This document shows, in pieces, positions 41,645 to 49,135 of a DNA stretch of 59,668 nt; position 1 is the stretch's first letter, and each line of letters begins with the position of its first letter. The position numbers and the translations under genes are program-made. The stretch is from Alphaproteobacteria bacterium. Lineage in GTDB: Bacteria > Pseudomonadota > Alphaproteobacteria > Micropepsales > Micropepsaceae. The notes beneath the pieces are model-generated. The model was not told where the DNA came from and searched no databases. It was given only the letters and a program-made list of their open reading frames with translations. The DNA lies in NCBI GenBank assembly GCA_018971835.1, contig JAGWZW010000013.1:1-59668 (forward strand). The letters run 5' to 3'.

Positions 41645-44284
41645 ATGCCCAAACGTATGCTAATCGACGCAAGCCACCCGGAGGAGACCCGGGTGGTCGT
41701 TCTCGACGGTCAGAAGGTCGAGGAATTTGACTTCGAGGCCGCCTCCAAGCGGCCGCTTAAGGGAAACATCTATCTGGCGAAAGTGACGCGCGTGGAGCCC
41801 TCGCTCCAGGCCGCCTTCGTGGAATATGGCGGCAACCGCCAGGGCTTCCTCGCCTTCTCGGAAATCCATCCCGACTACTACCAGATTCCGGTGGCCGACC
41901 GGCAGGCTCTGATCGCCGAACAGCAAGCCGAGGCCCGCCGCCGCGGCGACGACGACTTCGAAGCGGTCGAAACCGCCAAGTCCAGGAAAAAGGGCAAAGC
42001 CGAAGCGGTTCCCCTCGCCGAAAGCACGGACGAAGACGCCGCCACCGACAGCGAAGTGCCGGTCACCGGAGAGACGAACGGCGACAGCGGCGTGATCGAA
42101 GCGTTTGCCGATGAAGACGGCGATGTCCTGCTCCGCGATACCAGTGACGACGAAGCCGATGCCGAGCCGGTAGAGGGTGACGAAGAAGCCGCCGAAGCGG
42201 CCACGACAGAAGCTGCAGACGGCGAAGCCGGCGAAAGCGAAACCGGCGAACAGAAGGCCCAGCCCCTGCAGGCGCAGCGGCCCTCGCAGCGCTGGATGCG
42301 CAAGCGTCATTACAAGATCCAGGAAGTCATCAAGCGCCGCCAGGTGATGCTGGTGCAGGTGGTCAAGGAAGAGCGCGGCAACAAGGGCGCAGCGCTGACC
42401 ACCTATCTCTCGCTCGCAGGCCGCTATTGCGTGCTCATGCCCAACACGCCGCGCGGCGGCGGCATCTCCCGCAAGATCACCAATGCCAGCGACCGCAAGC
42501 GCCTCAAATCTGCGGCGGCGTCGCTCGAATTGCCCGAGGGCATGGGCCTCATCATCCGCACTGCAGGCGAGAACCGCACCAAGCTCGAAATCAAGCGTGA
42601 TTACGAATATCTGCTGCGCATGTGGGATACGATCCGCGAGCTGACGCTGAAATCGAACGCGCCAGCCTGCGTTTACGAGGAAGGCGACCTCATCAAGCGC
42701 GCCATACGCGATCTCTACAACAAGGACGTTTCGGAAGTTCTGGTGGAAGGCGACGACGGCTACCGCAACGCCAAGGACTTCATGCGCATGCTGATGCCAA
42801 GCCATGCGAAGAACGTGAAGCAGTACAAGGAGCCGGTGCCGCTGTTTCACCGTCTCAGCATCGAATCGCAACTCGACGCCATGTTCACGCCGACGGTGAC
42901 GCTGAAGTCGGGTGGCTATCTCGTCATCAACCAGACCGAGGCGCTGGTGGCGATCGACGTGAACTCGGGCCGCGCCACGCGCGAGCACAACATCGAGGAC
43001 ACCGCCTACAAGACCAATCTCGAAGCCGCCGATGAAGTCGGCCGCCAGCTGCGCCTGCGCGATCTGGCCGGTCTGATCGTCATCGACTTCATCGACATGG
43101 AAGACAGCCGCAACGACCGCGCGGTGGAAAAGCGTCTGCAGAACGCGGTGAAGACCGACCGCGCGCGCGTGCAGGTGGGCAAGATCAGCCAGTTCGGCCT
43201 GCTCGAAATGTCACGCCAGCGGCTGCGCGCGGGCGTGATCGCGGGCTCGACCGTGCCTTGCCCGCATTGCGCCGGTCAGGGCATCGTGCGCTCCGTGGAA
43301 TCCACGGCGCTGCGCGTCCTGCGTGGGCTCGAGGAGGAAGGCCAGAAGCAAAAGGCCGCTGCCGTAAAGGTGCGCGTGCCGGCGGACGTGGCCGTCTACA
43401 CGCTGAACCAGAAGCGCCGCGAGCTGGCCCGTATCGAAGCCGATTACGTCATGACCATCGCCATCGAACCCGATGGCGCTGTCACCGCAGGCAATTTCGA
43501 GATCGACCGGCTCCAGGCCCGCAGTCCCGAAGACCGCGTGAAGATCGCCATTGCTCCGTTGCCGGTCGCCGAAGAGCCGCCGGCCGAGGAACCCGAAGAG
43601 CGCGAAGAAGCGGCCGAACCGCAACCTGCAAGTGGTGACGGCGAGGGTCAGGGCGGACGGCGCCGCCGCAAACGCCGCCGTCGGGGCCGCGATCGCGATC
43701 GCCCGGCCGTGATACAGGAAGCAATTCCGGCGAGCGGCGAAACCGAATTCGATGCCGAACAGGAAGCCGAAGCCGCCGAAACCGGCAGCGAGGCGCAGGA
43801 AGGCGGCGTTCCGGCGCAGGCCGGCGAATCCGATGAATCTGGCGAATCCAGGCGCAAACGCCGCCGCCGCCGCCGGGGCCGCCGCGGCCGGCGTGACGGC
43901 GAGGCCCAGGGCCAGGGCCAGGAGTCGGAAGGCGCCGCCCGGGAAAGCGAAGAGCGTGAAGAGGAACCGGAAGAAACCGGTCCAGAGGCCGTCGCCGAAA
44001 TCGGTGAGGTGCCATCCGCGCCGCTCAACGCGCCGTCGGAGCCGCAATGGTCGCTGCTGGGCGAGGAGATGCCGGAACCCGCTGCAATTGCAGAGCCTGC
44101 CGCCCCGGCCGAACCAGTGCCCGCAGCGGAGCCCGAACCCGCCGCCGAACCGGAACCGGAGCCGGCGCTTGCCGGAGAGCCGGCCGGTGCCGCGCCGGCA
44201 ACCGAGGCTGAACCGGTGGCTGAAACCCCGGCCGCCCCGCCGCGCAAGGGCTGGTGGCAGCGGCCGTTCCGTCCGAAGGAGTAG
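41645..44284 (+). CDS. rne: ribonuclease E
   Basis: An 879-residue endoribonuclease, the core of the RNA degradosome. The N-terminal catalytic half has the S1 domain (KGNIYLAKVTRVEPSLQAAF), catalytic Asp residues in ALVAIDVNSGRA and IVIDFIDMED, and the zinc-link CPHC in TVPCPHCAGQG. The S1 domain is interrupted by an acidic, low-complexity insert of about 120 residues (from QQAEARRRGDDD to about AQRPSQRWMRK), a feature of alphaproteobacterial enzymes. The C-terminal half is a disordered scaffold with two Arg blocks (KRRRRGRDRD and RRRRRRGRRGRR) for RNA binding, then Glu/Pro/Ala-rich segments. GGAGATCATA precedes the ATG. It ends at the convergent GGT-like gene with 1 nt between stops. Confidence 0.95.
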   Translation: MPKRMLIDASHPEETRVVVLDGQKVEEFDFEAASKRPLKGNIYLAKVTRVEPSLQAAFVEYGGNRQGFLAFSEIHPDYYQIPVADRQALIAEQQAEARRRGDDDFEAVETAKSRKKGKAEAVPLAESTDEDAATDSEVPVTGETNGDSGVIEAFADEDGDVLLRDTSDDEADAEPVEGDEEAAEAATTEAADGEAGESETGEQKAQPLQAQRPSQRWMRKRHYKIQEVIKRRQVMLVQVVKEERGNKGAALTTYLSLAGRYCVLMPNTPRGGGISRKITNASDRKRLKSAAASLELPEGMGLIIRTAGENRTKLEIKRDYEYLLRMWDTIRELTLKSNAPACVYEEGDLIKRAIRDLYNKDVSEVLVEGDDGYRNAKDFMRMLMPSHAKNVKQYKEPVPLFHRLSIESQLDAMFTPTVTLKSGGYLVINQTEALVAIDVNSGRATREHNIEDTAYKTNLEAADEVGRQLRLRDLAGLIVIDFIDMEDSRNDRAVEKRLQNAVKTDRARVQVGKISQFGLLEMSRQRLRAGVIAGSTVPCPHCAGQGIVRSVESTALRVLRGLEEEGQKQKAAAVKVRVPADVAVYTLNQKRRELARIEADYVMTIAIEPDGAVTAGNFEIDRLQARSPEDRVKIAIAPLPVAEEPPAEEPEEREEAAEPQPASGDGEGQGGRRRRKRRRRGRDRDRPAVIQEAIPASGETEFDAEQEAEAAETGSEAQEGGVPAQAGESDESGESRRKRRRRRRGRRGRRDGEAQGQGQESEGAARESEEREEEPEETGPEAVAEIGEVPSAPLNAPSEPQWSLLGEEMPEPAAIAEPAAPAEPVPAAEPEPAAEPEPEPALAGEPAGAAPATEAEPVAETPAAPPRKGWWQRPFRPKE

Positions 44285-44285
44285 C

Positions 44286-45779
44286 CTACCCGCCGGCTGC
44301 GGCGGCGCCGTGCGCCGCCGGATCCGGCAAGGCCGTGCACACGCCCTGGCAGACGATGGCGTTCACCGTATCGGTGGGTGCCGCACGAGTGGCGTTGAGA
44401 TCGGCCCTGAGGTCGCTGGGTTTGCTCATGTCCTTGCCGCCGGCGACCCGTAACAGGGCGTAGGCAATGGCCGCCGTGCCGTCCGGCCCGCCAGCCCCGG
44501 CCCCGGCCAGGGTCACACCACGGCTCGCGCCTTCACCGGGGAGCTGGATCGGACCGCTGACGTCTTCCGTCGCCACCATCGGGGTGAGGAACGCCGCAGC
44601 CAGGCCCACCTGGCCAGCCGACGGAGCATTGGCGAGCGTCACGCCGGAATCGGCGGCCGTGTGCCCGGAACCGAACGGACCGTTCATGGTGACGGCACAG
44701 GCGACCGCCTGCCCGTTGGTGTCGAGGGCGGCAAAACCGGTAGCGCCAAGATCAGACGGCAGATTCGCCACGCCGAAGCGGGCAACCGCTTCGCGCACGG
44801 CGCGGCTGGCGGCGGCGCCGGATTTATCTCCGGAATGAAGATTGCCCTGCGCATCGACGAGCTGCGACAGCACAGCGGCCGCGAAGTTGCCCGCGCCCAC
44901 ACCTCTGGGCGGCAGATAAACGCGCTCATTGCCGAAATTGAGCACCTGCGGCGCCCCGATTTCGGCGCGGTAGGCGGCCAGGTCGCTCATCGAAACGGCA
45001 CCGCCTTCGCTGGCCGCGTAGTCCGCGAGCTGTTTGGCGACGGCGCCGCGATAAAGACCGTCCGGGCCCTCGCGGCGGATCGCCTCCAGCGTCATGGCCA
45101 GTGCCGGATTGACCACCGTGGTGCCGGCCGGTTTCACCTGCCCCGATTCATCCAGATATTCGGCCGCCAATCCGGCATCGAGCCGGATGATGTTCTGGCT
45201 GGCCTTGAGGCGCTCAGCCAGTGCCGCCGAAATGGGAACGCCTGCACCGGCGAGGCTCTCGCCCAGCGCCACGTCACGCGACCAGGAAAGCCGGCCATAG
45301 GCAGCGCGCAAGGCTGCAAAGCCCGCGACATTGCCCGGCACACCGAAGGCGCCGCCGCGCACCGCGTTGCGGGCCAGGAAGTTCACCGTCTGGCTGCGGC
45401 CGCTGGCCGCGTCGTAAACCACACAAAGCCCGCCGCCGCCCAGCCCCGCCGCCACCGGATACGTGGCGGCCATCGCGAAATAGGTCGCCGTTACGGCATC
45501 CGCCGCGCTGCCGCCCTGGCGAAGGATCGTCGCCCCTGCCCGCACGGCATAGGGCTCGTCACCAACGACGTACCCAGTCTTTGCCGCCTCCGAAGCCGAG
45601 GGCCCGAACAGCTTGCCCAGCGTCAGCGAACCCGAACTGTCGTCGGACGACGCGGTGTCCGTTCCGCTGTCTGAAGGATTCATGACGAGACCCTTGTCGG
45701 GGTCGTAGGTCGGAAGGTTCGAGCAGGCCGTAAGGATCAGCGCGGCGGCAACACCGGCAAGAAAACCGTGGCGGGGCAT
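44286..45779 (-). CDS. gamma-glutamyltransferase-like lipoprotein lacking the catalytic threonine
   Basis: A 497-residue lipoprotein (lipobox LTAC, Cys19) with the gamma-glutamyltranspeptidase fold. The large-subunit signature ATILRQGGSAADAVTATYF is followed by PVAAGLGGGGLCVVYD and GVPGNVAGFAALR. At the autoprocessing site, where active enzymes read TTHxS followed by the D-x-DGNAV and FGTG segments, this protein has GATGFAALDTNGQAVA and PFGSG. The alignment is gap-free and puts Ala346 at the position of the nucleophilic, self-cleaving Thr391 of E. coli GGT; the following His is also lost. It should therefore neither self-process nor carry out transfer. The upstream in-frame start at 45857 is less likely than the lipoprotein start at 45779. 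It is divergent from the M48 peptidase gene. Confidence 0.85.
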   Translation of the reverse strand: MPRHGFLAGVAAALILTACSNLPTYDPDKGLVMNPSDSGTDTASSDDSSGSLTLGKLFGPSASEAAKTGYVVGDEPYAVRAGATILRQGGSAADAVTATYFAMAATYPVAAGLGGGGLCVVYDAASGRSQTVNFLARNAVRGGAFGVPGNVAGFAALRAAYGRLSWSRDVALGESLAGAGVPISAALAERLKASQNIIRLDAGLAAEYLDESGQVKPAGTTVVNPALAMTLEAIRREGPDGLYRGAVAKQLADYAASEGGAVSMSDLAAYRAEIGAPQVLNFGNERVYLPPRGVGAGNFAAAVLSQLVDAQGNLHSGDKSGAAASRAVREAVARFGVANLPSDLGATGFAALDTNGQAVACAVTMNGPFGSGHTAADSGVTLANAPSAGQVGLAAAFLTPMVATEDVSGPIQLPGEGASRGVTLAGAGAGGPDGTAAIAYALLRVAGGKDMSKPSDLRADLNATRAAPTDTVNAIVCQGVCTALPDPAAHGAAAAGG

Positions 45780-45958: not shown

Positions 45959-47365
45959 ATGACGTTTCGCACGCTCACGTTTCGGCGTCGCCCGCGGACC
46001 AGCCTGGTGCGTGCCGCGCTCTTTGCGCTGCCGGCGCTGGTCTGCTTCTTCGTTGCGCCGCCGCCGGCCGCCGCGCAAGGCATTTCCATCATCCGCGACA
46101 CCGAGATCGAGCGCGTCCTGGAAAGCTACGAGCGCCCGCTCCTGATCGCGGCCGGCATCGATCCCAGCACGGTGAAGATGCGCATCGTGGACGACCCCTC
46201 GCTCAACGCGTTCGCCGCCCAGAGCCCCTATCTCGCAGACAGCGAAGACATCTTCGTGAACACCGGCACCTTCCTGCAACTGAAGACGCCCAACCAGCTC
46301 ATCGGCATCCTGGCCCACGAAACCGGCCATATCGCCGGCGGCGACGTGATCCGCGGCGGCATCGCCATGCAGAAAGCCTCGATCCCCATGCTGATCGGCA
46401 TGGCGGTGGGCGTGGCGGCCATGATCGCCGGCGGCGGCGAAGCGGGCATGGGCGCGATCATGATGGGCCAGCAGGCGGCGATGGCCCAGTATCTGGAGTT
46501 CAGCCGCGCCCAGGAAGCGACCGCCGACCAGCGCGGCCTCACCTACCTGGACCGCACGCACCAGTCGCCCGAGGGCATGCTGCAGGTGTTTCAGCAGATG
46601 GCCCAGGAACAGGCGATGAGCGCAGACTACAACAAGCAGTTCGTCTCCGACCACCCGGCCGACCGCCAGCGCATCGACGAGCTGCAGAACCGCGTCAACG
46701 CGTCCCCTTACAAGAACCTGAAGGACAGCCCGGCCGCCGTCGATGAATTTCATATGATCCAAGCCAAGCTGATCGGCTACATCTCGAATCCGGACGCGGT
46801 GCTCGTGCGCTATCCGGCCAGCGACAACAGCGACGAGGCCTATTACGCCCGCGCGATGGCCTATTTCCGCAAGCCCGACATGAAGGACGCCCTCGCCCAG
46901 GCCGACACGCTCATCAAGCGCCACCCGGACAATCCCTATTTCTGGGAAATGCTGGGCCAGATCTATGTCGAGATGAGCAAGCCCGACAAGGGCGTGGCGC
47001 CCTACCAGAAATCCGTGGACCTGATGCCCGATGCGCCGCTGCTGCGCGTTTCGCTGGCCGCGGCCCAGCTCGCCACCGAGAAGCAGGCTCTGGTCAAGCC
47101 GGCGCTGGAAAACCTGAAGGTCGCCCTGCAACAGGAAAACGACAGCACCTTCGCCTGGTACGAGGTGGCGCAGGCCTACAGCGACCTCGGCAACCAGCCG
47201 ATGGCCGACCTCTCAACGGCGGAGCGCTTCTACTGGTCAGGCGGCATGAAGCAGGCCGCAATGTTCGCGTCGCGTGCCGCCAAGAAGCTGCCCAGGGGAT
47301 CAATCGATTGGCAACGCGCGAACGATATCGTGTCCACGGCCAGCGCCCAGGCCAAGAGCAACTGA
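45959..47365 (+). CDS. M48 metalloprotease with TPR repeats, BepA-like
   Basis: A 468-residue periplasmic zinc protease. A basic start and signal peptide (ALFALPALVCFFVAPPPAAAQ) are followed by an M48 domain with HETGH (LAHETGHIAGGD) and a downstream Glu ligand in RAQEATADQRG. The C-terminal half consists of TPR-type helical repeats (AYYARAMAYFRKPDMKDALAQ, YFWEMLGQIYVEM). This layout matches BepA, which repairs or degrades stalled outer-membrane proteins such as LptD. ATG 45959 puts the signal peptide near the start; an upstream in-frame start at 45797 would not. A DsbA-like gene follows 27 nt later, so the pair is likely cotranscribed and both act on envelope protein folding. Confidence 0.92.
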   Translation: MTFRTLTFRRRPRTSLVRAALFALPALVCFFVAPPPAAAQGISIIRDTEIERVLESYERPLLIAAGIDPSTVKMRIVDDPSLNAFAAQSPYLADSEDIFVNTGTFLQLKTPNQLIGILAHETGHIAGGDVIRGGIAMQKASIPMLIGMAVGVAAMIAGGGEAGMGAIMMGQQAAMAQYLEFSRAQEATADQRGLTYLDRTHQSPEGMLQVFQQMAQEQAMSADYNKQFVSDHPADRQRIDELQNRVNASPYKNLKDSPAAVDEFHMIQAKLIGYISNPDAVLVRYPASDNSDEAYYARAMAYFRKPDMKDALAQADTLIKRHPDNPYFWEMLGQIYVEMSKPDKGVAPYQKSVDLMPDAPLLRVSLAAAQLATEKQALVKPALENLKVALQQENDSTFAWYEVAQAYSDLGNQPMADLSTAERFYWSGGMKQAAMFASRAAKKLPRGSIDWQRANDIVSTASAQAKSN

Positions 47366-47392: not shown

Positions 47393-48130
47393 ATGGATTT
47401 CAAAACGGCTGCCCTGGGCGGCATTGCGGGCGCCGTACTGGGCGTCGCCGCAGTTTACGGCCTCTCCGGCGCCGGCCTGCTTCCGGGCCGCACCGGCGAC
47501 GCGGCGATCCATGCCTATCTGATGAAGCATCCGCAGATTCTGGTGGACATGACCAACGAACTGCAGGCCCAGCAGCAGCAAGCCGACGACGACGCCCGCC
47601 AAGCTGCCGTCAACAAGCTCGGGACCAAGGCCTACTTCGATCCCAGGGTCGCCTTCGTCACCGGCCCGGCCAACGCCAAGACCACCTTCGTCGAGTTCTT
47701 CGATTACAACTGCCCCTTCTGCCGCTCGTCCAATGCGGTGGTGGAGAAATTCTACCAGGCGCACAAGAACGATGTGCGTTTCGCCTTCATCGAGTTTCCC
47801 ATCAAGGGCCAGGCCTCCATCGACGCCACGCGCATTTCGCTGGCCGCGCGCCAGCAGCCGGACAAATATCTGGCGCTCCACTTCGCCCTGATGAACCAGA
47901 ACGGCCAAACCGACGCCGCGACGGTGGTGCAGGAAGCCAAGAAACTCGGCTTCAACCTGACGAAACTTCAGGCGGATGAAGAGGCCGATGCGGTCAGCGC
48001 CGAAATCGCCGCCGCCCATACGCTGGCGGGCGCCAGCGGCATCGACGGCACACCGGCCTTCATCATCAACGGCAAGGTCCGCGAAGGCGCCATCGACGAT
48101 CACGTCCTGGAGCAGATGCTCAAGGGCTGA
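47393..48130 (+). CDS. DsbA-family thiol:disulfide oxidoreductase
   Basis: A 245-residue protein with an N-terminal membrane anchor or signal (ALGGIAGAVLGVAAVYGLSG), a charged helical spacer (NELQAQQQQADDDARQAA) and a thioredoxin-like DsbA domain with active site CPFC in FFDYNCPFCRSSN and the cis-Pro loop GTPAFIIN. It should form or shuffle disulfides in periplasmic proteins. The spacer and CPFC with TP cis-Pro resemble ScsC/BdbD-like relatives more than classical CPHC DsbA. It follows the BepA-like gene closely. No DsbB partner is in the window. Confidence 0.9.
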   Translation: MDFKTAALGGIAGAVLGVAAVYGLSGAGLLPGRTGDAAIHAYLMKHPQILVDMTNELQAQQQQADDDARQAAVNKLGTKAYFDPRVAFVTGPANAKTTFVEFFDYNCPFCRSSNAVVEKFYQAHKNDVRFAFIEFPIKGQASIDATRISLAARQQPDKYLALHFALMNQNGQTDAATVVQEAKKLGFNLTKLQADEEADAVSAEIAAAHTLAGASGIDGTPAFIINGKVREGAIDDHVLEQMLKG

Positions 48131-48139
48131 GCCTGTCTC

Positions 48140-49135
48140 TCAGATCAGCCCGGCCAGCGGGCTCGAAGGATCGGCATAGCGCTTCTTGGGCATGCGGCCG
48201 GCGAGATAGGCAAGCCGGCCCGCCGCCACCGCATGTTTCATGGCGCTGGCCATCATCACCGGATTCTTGGCCTCGGCGATGGCGGTGTTCATCAGCACCG
48301 CGTCGCAGCCCAGTTCCATCGCGATCGCCGCGTCCGACGCCGTGCCCACGCCGGCGTCCACGATCACCGGCACCTTGGCTTCCTCGATGATCATGCGGAT
48401 GCCGACGGGATTCTGCAGGCCCAAGCCCGAGCCGATGGGCGCCGCCAGCGGCATGATCGCCGCTGCGCCCATCTCTTCCAGCCGCTTGGCCATCAAGGGA
48501 TCGTCGCTGCAATAGACCATCACCTGGAAGCCTTCCTTGATGAGCAGCTCGGTGGCGCGCAGCGTCTCGATCATGTCGGGGTAGAGCGTCTTGCGGTCGC
48601 CCAGCACTTCGAGCTTCACCAGATCCCAGCCCCCCGCTTCGCGCGCCAGGCGCAAGGTGCGTACTGCATCTTCGCCGGTGAAGCAGCCCGCGGTATTGGG
48701 CAGATACGTCACCTTTTTCGGATCGATGAAGTCGACCAGCTTGGGCTGGCTGGGATCGGTCAGATTCACGCGGCGCACGGCGACCGTCACCATCTCCGCA
48801 CCCGAGGCTTCCAGCGCGCGCGCGTTCTCTTCGTAGGTCTTGTACTTGCCGGTGCCGATGATGAGGCGGGACTTGTAGGTCTTGCCGGCGATAACCAGCG
48901 GCCTGTCGGCCGGCGTCTCGAACGGCGCATTGCCGCCGCCGATGAAATGGACGATCTCCAGCCGGTCGCCGGCGCCCACCGTCACGGCCTCGTACTGGCT
49001 GCGCGGCACGATCTGAAGATTGTGCTCCACGGCGATCTTGGCCGGATCCAGCCCCAGAGAGCCGAGCAAGGCCTTCAGGCTCACGGGGGCGTCGAGCTGC
49101 CGATTCTCGCCGTTGATGGTCACTGAAAGGGTCAT
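48140..49135 (-). CDS. thiG: ThiS-ThiG fusion: sulfur carrier plus thiazole synthase
   Basis: A 331-residue protein for the thiazole half of thiamine. Residues 1-67 are a ThiS ubiquitin-like carrier ([14 protein letters not shown], ending [13 protein letters not shown]). Residues from about 78 are a complete ThiG barrel ([54 protein letters not shown]). In free ThiS the terminal Gly-Gly becomes the thiocarboxylate that gives sulfur, yet here the Gly run is internal and followed by [11 protein letters not shown]. Either the linker is cut after GG, or a separate ThiS elsewhere does the work. Such fusions are known in some bacteria. No thiF, thiO, thiC or thiE lies nearby. It converges on the DsbA-like gene with 9 nt between them. 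Confidence 0.92.

Follow-up and report, generated by a model that had tools for sequence, protein, structure and literature searches.

What becomes of the gamma-glutamyltransferase (GGT) fold once its catalytic nucleophile is gone is the question raised by one gene in the 59,668-nucleotide stretch of alphaproteobacterial DNA analysed here, to which we refer as the window. The gene lies on the minus strand (44286..45779, with an ATG start at 45779) and encodes a GGT-fold lipoprotein of 497 aa, as judged from the translation, Pfam and a structure model. The original prediction for this locus held that the protein carries Ala at the position of the nucleophile Thr391 of E. coli GGT and Gly in place of the neighbouring His, and both observations were borne out. 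Codon 346 (GCT, 44742..44744, minus strand) encodes Ala exactly at the site of the catalytic Thr391, a placement on which phmmer and two MAFFT family alignments agree. In the phmmer pairing with the chain of 2e0w, the E. coli T391A precursor, Ala346 falls on the mutated residue 391, Thr347 on Thr392 and Gly348 on His393; codon 347 (ACC, 44739..44741, minus strand) thus encodes a Thr that is not aligned with the nucleophile. The segment 345-385 pairs with 2e0w without gaps, and the N-G-x-A-V and FGSG landmarks are retained, as had been noted. Taken on its own this segment gives a weak match (i-Evalue 0.059, phmmer against 2e0w), and its placement is the same in the two MAFFT alignments.

The window protein and its predicted fold

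The protein is recognised by the Pfam model PF01019 (G_glu_transpept) with 173.9 bits, against a cut-off of 27, but its 142.5 bits for the NCBIfam GGT equivalog TIGR00066 fall below the cut-off of 357.85. In the alignment, residues T391, R114, D433, S462 and S463 of the E. coli enzyme correspond to A, L, A, A and F, so that both the N-terminal Thr nucleophile and the substrate contacts are missing, and the oxyanion glycines G483 and G484 are both still Gly. With these substitutions the protein would be expected to stay as one uncut chain without transferase activity, as originally proposed; it is a GGT homologue that ought not to be classed as a gamma-glutamyltransferase. The accompanying suggestion that it may bind gamma-glutamyl compounds finds no support, because the remaining contacts of GGT with the glutamyl group have also been lost. 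Two further GGTs in the source genome (L001 and L002) are canonical, with Thr at the site in both. An error of sequencing or assembly has practically no chance of accounting for the Ala of codon 346: the draft assembly that contains the window does consist of 162 contigs, but the GATGF motif is common to close relatives from other assemblies and Ala is found at this position in a third of the relatives considered below (50/150), by which this explanation is refuted.

An AlphaFold2 model, calculated with the alignment of relatives that we call A1 (see below), had a pLDDT of 86.5 and a pTM of 0.85. Its top PDB match in Foldseek was 2e0w (E 4.7e-28), that is, the uncut E. coli precursor, and the second-best structure entry was the T399A precursor of the B. 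licheniformis enzyme (4y23). Aligned to 2e0w with VIA-align, the model matched over 410 residues, with a Z of 45.9 and an rmsd of 2.9, and it has therefore the GGT fold at the level of prediction. The statement that the whole GGT fold is present holds for these 410 residues of the model, and has to be qualified for the segment equivalent to E. coli 320-388, which is shortened to 24 residues in the window protein versus a canonical median of 75.

A clade spread across the Alphaproteobacteria

A set of 46 related loci (L036-L081) was gathered, including those of Rhizomicrobium electricum, Parvibaculum, Oceanibacterium hippocampi, an Acidocella and bins of Rhodospirillales and Acetobacteraceae; the homologue of R. 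electricum, of the order Micropepsales, is 52% identical to the window protein. Forty of these loci together with the window protein form the 41 rows of profile A1, which was searched against 289 genomes of the class. Clade members were found in at least 101 of the 289 genomes, a lower bound taken from the matches examined, with loci summed by hand, and obtained with a profile that, being built from clade members, favours lookalike sequences. Before residues were counted, 13 duplicates and the three rows L083-L085, from repeat genomes, were removed, and the counts below refer to 150 non-redundant clade members; four that are cut by contig ends (L072, L075, L080 and L148) were omitted from the tree only. 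Among 19 further matches of the class survey, 11 belong to the clade and have all four of the cysteines described below; these 11 enter the 101-genome count and stand outside the 150 rows. Seven others are canonical with TTH or TSH, and one (L243) is split. This last gene, in genome G092, belongs to the clade and carries one in-frame TAA that leaves fragments of 212 and 334 aa, reflecting either a disrupted gene or a mistake in the assembly.

In a search of 398 genomes of the phylum, none of the 10 loci listed from other classes (L276, L277, L279-L283 and L286-L288) belongs to the clade, all of them being canonical with TTH; the check covers these stronger out-of-class matches. A plasmid search returned 17 matches annotated as gamma-glutamyltransferase or its family among the best 20 of 175 records, and among the plasmid matches listed Tistrella mobilis NC_017958 agrees in place with the clade locus L248. 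No earlier description of the clade was apparent in full-text literature searches, which covered titles and the starts of abstracts and left subscription papers mostly outside.

Within the clade, position 346 is occupied by Ser in 56 members, Ala in 50, Gly in 25 and Thr in eight, and the remaining 11 of the 150 are divided among Glu (three), Arg and Phe (two each) and single cases of Asn, Gln, Trp and Asp. At position 347 there are 109 Thr, 24 Ala, eight Ser, four Gly, three Val, one Ile and one Phe, and 26 of the 150 members lack Ser, Thr and Cys at both positions. The original prediction had asked whether Ala is conserved among relatives; it is the second most frequent residue after Ser, and the position drifts among many letters. 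For comparison we used 32 canonical GGTs, namely the 29 best-scoring PF01019 loci, the two from the source genome and the E. coli enzyme, a control drawn mainly from the top of the PF01019 matches. Here Thr391 is found in all 32, R114 in 32, D433 in 31, S462 in 31 and S463 in 30. Counted together, these five core residues are all present in 30 of the 32 canonical sequences, with one sequence keeping four and another two, whereas in the clade 112 of 150 members have none of them, 30 have one and eight have two.

Other parts of the site are better kept. T364 and N366, which correspond to the substrate-site residues T409 and N411, are retained in 121/150 and 108/150 members, respectively, which indicates from the alignment that part of the old GGT pocket persists, and Gly is present at the equivalent of E. 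coli G483 in 142/150. In addition, the alignment of the 150 relatives reveals residues conserved in the clade at positions that are Val, Asp and Ala in the E. coli enzyme: Asp74 (133/147) and Glu75 (139/147), encoded at 45555-45560, and Arg235 (135/148), encoded at 45075-45077, all on the minus strand.

A single branch with a support of 100 divides 146 clade members from the 32 canonical sequences (178 rows), in a tree made with FastTree, a quick method, with a long-branch warning (L169 and L170 joined) and uneven letter composition in many rows. The window protein lies on the clade side of this branch and has Cys at 119, 361, 477 and 481, the combination by which we define the pseudoenzyme clade. 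Position 346, which was excluded from the tree, has undergone at least 40 changes of letter over the 146 tips, and at least 20 changes between Ser, Thr or Cys and other residues. In view of the spread of letters, the losses in the core and these changes on the tree, Ala346 represents one state of a position freed from selection for a nucleophile.

How far such losses imply inactivity can be judged from characterised enzymes. The available part of PMC8062742 reports that T391A abolishes autoprocessing and activity, and that R109L and R109M abolish transpeptidase activity with 5% and 4% of hydrolysis left. According to the same part of that source there are GGTs from extremophiles without R114 and S462/S463, and for this reason the loss of these residues alone is no proof of inactivity.

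Another residue might have taken over, with part of the clade still acting as N-terminal-nucleophile enzymes through Ser346 or Thr347, and the window protein either using Thr347 or representing a late loss. Gly-Ser is a cleavage site in other N-terminal-nucleophile enzymes, and Ser or Thr is found at 346 in 64/150 members and at 347 in 117/150. Moreover, E. coli T391S is impaired and not dead (PMC8062742, in the part available). We consider this very unlikely, since the Ser/Thr/Cys state at 346 flips so often on the tree and since 26 members are without such a residue at either place. The original prediction had counted Thr in relatives, or a nucleophilic Thr347, as evidence against itself. 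The former is seen in a weak form, in the eight members with Thr346, which retain at most one further core residue; as for the latter, Thr347 is indeed present, but it aligns to Thr392 and is replaced by another residue in 41/150 members. When the 150 relatives were searched for a new nucleophile, no Ser, Thr or His proved invariant at the old active site, where the invariant reactive residues are cysteines. Cys361 was considered as a catalytic candidate and rejected: it precedes T364 (E. coli T409) by three residues, and because the two side chains should face opposite sides of the strand, we infer that Cys361 is structural and not catalytic.

The clade is thus, in our reading, a group of alphaproteobacterial lipoproteins with the GGT (N-terminal-nucleophile hydrolase) fold in which self-cleavage and gamma-glutamyl chemistry have been lost, and this loss of the chemistry is well supported. 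The original prediction was too narrow in its scope, as the substitution is class-wide and not confined to one gene, and it had missed the four invariant cysteines as well as a DsbA-like neighbour. Clade members pass the GGT Pfam model, as tested on the window protein, and could be misnamed as active transferases.

Conserved cysteines and the lipid anchor

The claim that the protein is a lipoprotein agrees with its translation, which begins with a signal peptide followed by the lipobox LTAC; the lipobox cysteine, Cys19 (45723..45725, minus strand), is Cys in 146 of the 147 rows covering the position. The residue following the lipid-bearing cysteine is Asp in only 5/146 clade members. In E. coli, Asp after the lipobox cysteine governs the membrane sorting of lipoproteins, and by this rule an outer-membrane location is suggested for the clade lipoprotein.

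Four further cysteines, all encoded on the minus strand, are specific to the clade and absent from all canonical sequences (0/32 in each case). Cys119 (45423..45425) lies in strand 116-123 and is present in 147/147 covering rows; Cys361 (44697..44699), in strand 357-364, in 150/150; and Cys477 (44349..44351), at the end of strand 471-477, and Cys481 (44337..44339), at the start of strand 481-484, in 149/149 covering rows each. The last two are separated by 3 to 13 residues, depending on the member, with both retained throughout. Exactly four cysteines follow the lipobox in 144/150 clade members; of the six exceptions, four are the genes cut by contig ends (L072, L075, L080 and L148), and the others carry extra cysteines, one in L140 and two in L142. 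As the four cysteines always occur together in an exported protein, we infer that they form two disulfides. From the strand positions in the predicted model, our guess at the pairing would be C119 with C361 and C477 with C481.

Gene neighbourhood, function and known systems

Divergently beside the lipoprotein gene lies the gene of an M48 metalloprotease with TPR repeats and an intact HETGH motif (45959..47365, plus strand; PF01435, 97.7 bits). It scores 134.2 bits for the NCBIfam BepA equivalog, below the cut-off of 570, and is called BepA-like here for this reason, the M48 domain and the TPR repeats being present. It is followed by a DsbA/ScsC-like thioredoxin-fold protein with a CPFC motif (47393..48130, plus strand; PF13462, PF01323 and PF18312). 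Besides DSBA, this protein matches the ScsC N-terminal domain (PF18312), which suggests a thiol protein of the ScsC type. A ThiS-like stretch fused to ThiG, in an ORF judged by eye, occupies 48140-49135, and on the other side the convergent neighbour is RNase E (rne; 41645..44284, plus strand). A scan for promoters and terminators of the lipoprotein gene and its start region gave none above shuffles.

The conserved gene block with a divergent BepA-like protease, and a neighbourhood shared by relatives, were both confirmed class-wide: in 40 loci of up to 14.5 kb, the divergent M48 gene adjoins the lipoprotein gene in 39 and a DsbA-like gene is found within 3 kb in 31. Of the 46 related loci, several of which are truncated by the end of their contig, 37 contain M48 and 36 DsbA. 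In six loci without M48 (L073, L217 and L289-L292), a DsbA-like gene and the lipoprotein gene lie 0-149 bp apart, but five of these loci (all except L073) come from one family, f26, and are not independent; L071, L076, L077 and L081 have neither neighbour. The M48 protein occurs in 248 of the 289 class genomes (match at E 1e-25), against at least 101 for the lipoprotein, and therefore the protease probably does not need the lipoprotein. Of the five f26 genomes, the three that this survey covered (G062, G193 and G290) have the lipoprotein and are not among the M48-matching genomes at that threshold.

We give about an even chance to the proposal that the protein is a single-chain, disulfide-held, non-catalytic lipoprotein of the GGT fold, working as a scaffold or adaptor where envelope proteins are folded or checked for quality. 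The chain would stay whole in the envelope, tethered by its lipid and held by the two disulfides, which would probably be made by the DsbA-like enzyme encoded nearby, and the GGT shell would provide a binding surface, acting together with the BepA-like protease and the DsbA-like protein. A more specific form of the proposal, that of a dedicated alphaproteobacterial module in which a disulfide-locked outer-membrane GGT derivative, the BepA-like protease and the DsbA/ScsC-like enzyme serve the oxidative folding or quality control of outer-membrane proteins, the lipoprotein acting, for instance, as a receptor presenting clients to the protease, is put forward tentatively and as rather improbable, slightly more so as one family accounts for five of the six loci that lack M48 and have DsbA adjacent.

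Two other functions have to be weighed against the scaffold or adaptor. The retained T364 and N366, together with the Gly equivalent to G483, would also suit a lipoprotein whose pocket binds a peptide or an amino-acid compound, such as a muropeptide, which contains a gamma-D-glutamyl bond, and which works as a receptor or buffer near amiC and PBP1a. Genes for AmiC and PBP1a are indeed found on several of the longer loci, and amiC in 20 of the 40 class-wide stretches, but the cell-wall genes are farther off and less often conserved than those of M48 and DsbA, and the glutamyl contacts R114, D433, S462 and S463 have been lost, so that we regard ligand binding as unlikely. It is likewise doubtful, to our mind, that the protein is simply a structural envelope lipoprotein kept in an old housekeeping synteny, with no working link to the protease or to DsbA beyond being a client of the latter. 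The gene order may be mere ancestry, because rne, accB, accC and aroQ also stay near the lipoprotein gene in many loci; the much wider distribution of the M48 gene and the four loci with neither neighbour point the same way. However, the divergent M48 pairing is seen in 39/40 loci compared with 25/40 for rne, and DsbA is directly adjacent in the six M48-less loci, albeit with the dependence on family f26 given above. The steady pairing with M48 and the frequent one with a DsbA-like gene give experiments on envelope quality control in the Alphaproteobacteria a place to start.

Envelope proteases with a lipoprotein partner are known in NlpI-Prc and LbcA-CtpA. In Sinorhizobium, the M48 protease JspA and the small lipoprotein LppA act jointly (PMC10659215, available part), and the likeness is that an envelope protease, there too with an M48 domain, is linked to a lipoprotein. 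A working link between the window lipoprotein and its M48 neighbour may be envisaged. The systems differ in that LppA has 148 aa and JspA carries LysM and a lipobox, and the part of PMC10659215 available mentions no GGT fold. In the LptD route of E. coli, the available parts of two papers describe BepA as promoting or degrading LptD (PMC8423444), and DsbA and the lipoprotein LptM as acting on the LptD disulfides, with BepA not synergistic with LptM (PMC10567701). The same kinds of protein, an M48 protease, a thiol oxidase and a lipoprotein (LptE or LptM), are thus found in that route and in the window; the likeness is one of protein kinds alone, and the DsbA of the window is ScsC-like.

Compared with E. 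coli GGT itself (Ggt, PF01019), the window protein shares the fold over the 410 aligned residues, the NGxAV and FGxG landmarks and the oxyanion glycines, and lacks Thr391, His393, R114, D433, S462 and S463, differing further in its 24-residue counterpart of the 320-388 segment, its lipoprotein nature and its four added cysteines. The laboratory counterpart of an uncut, inactive state is found in the precursor mutants T391A of E. coli (2e0w) and T399A of B. licheniformis (4y23), whereas the state seen here is natural and clade-wide, with other active-site residues lost too. If the pseudoenzyme reading is true, the clade provides a natural and widespread case of the GGT fold being left uncut and put to another use.
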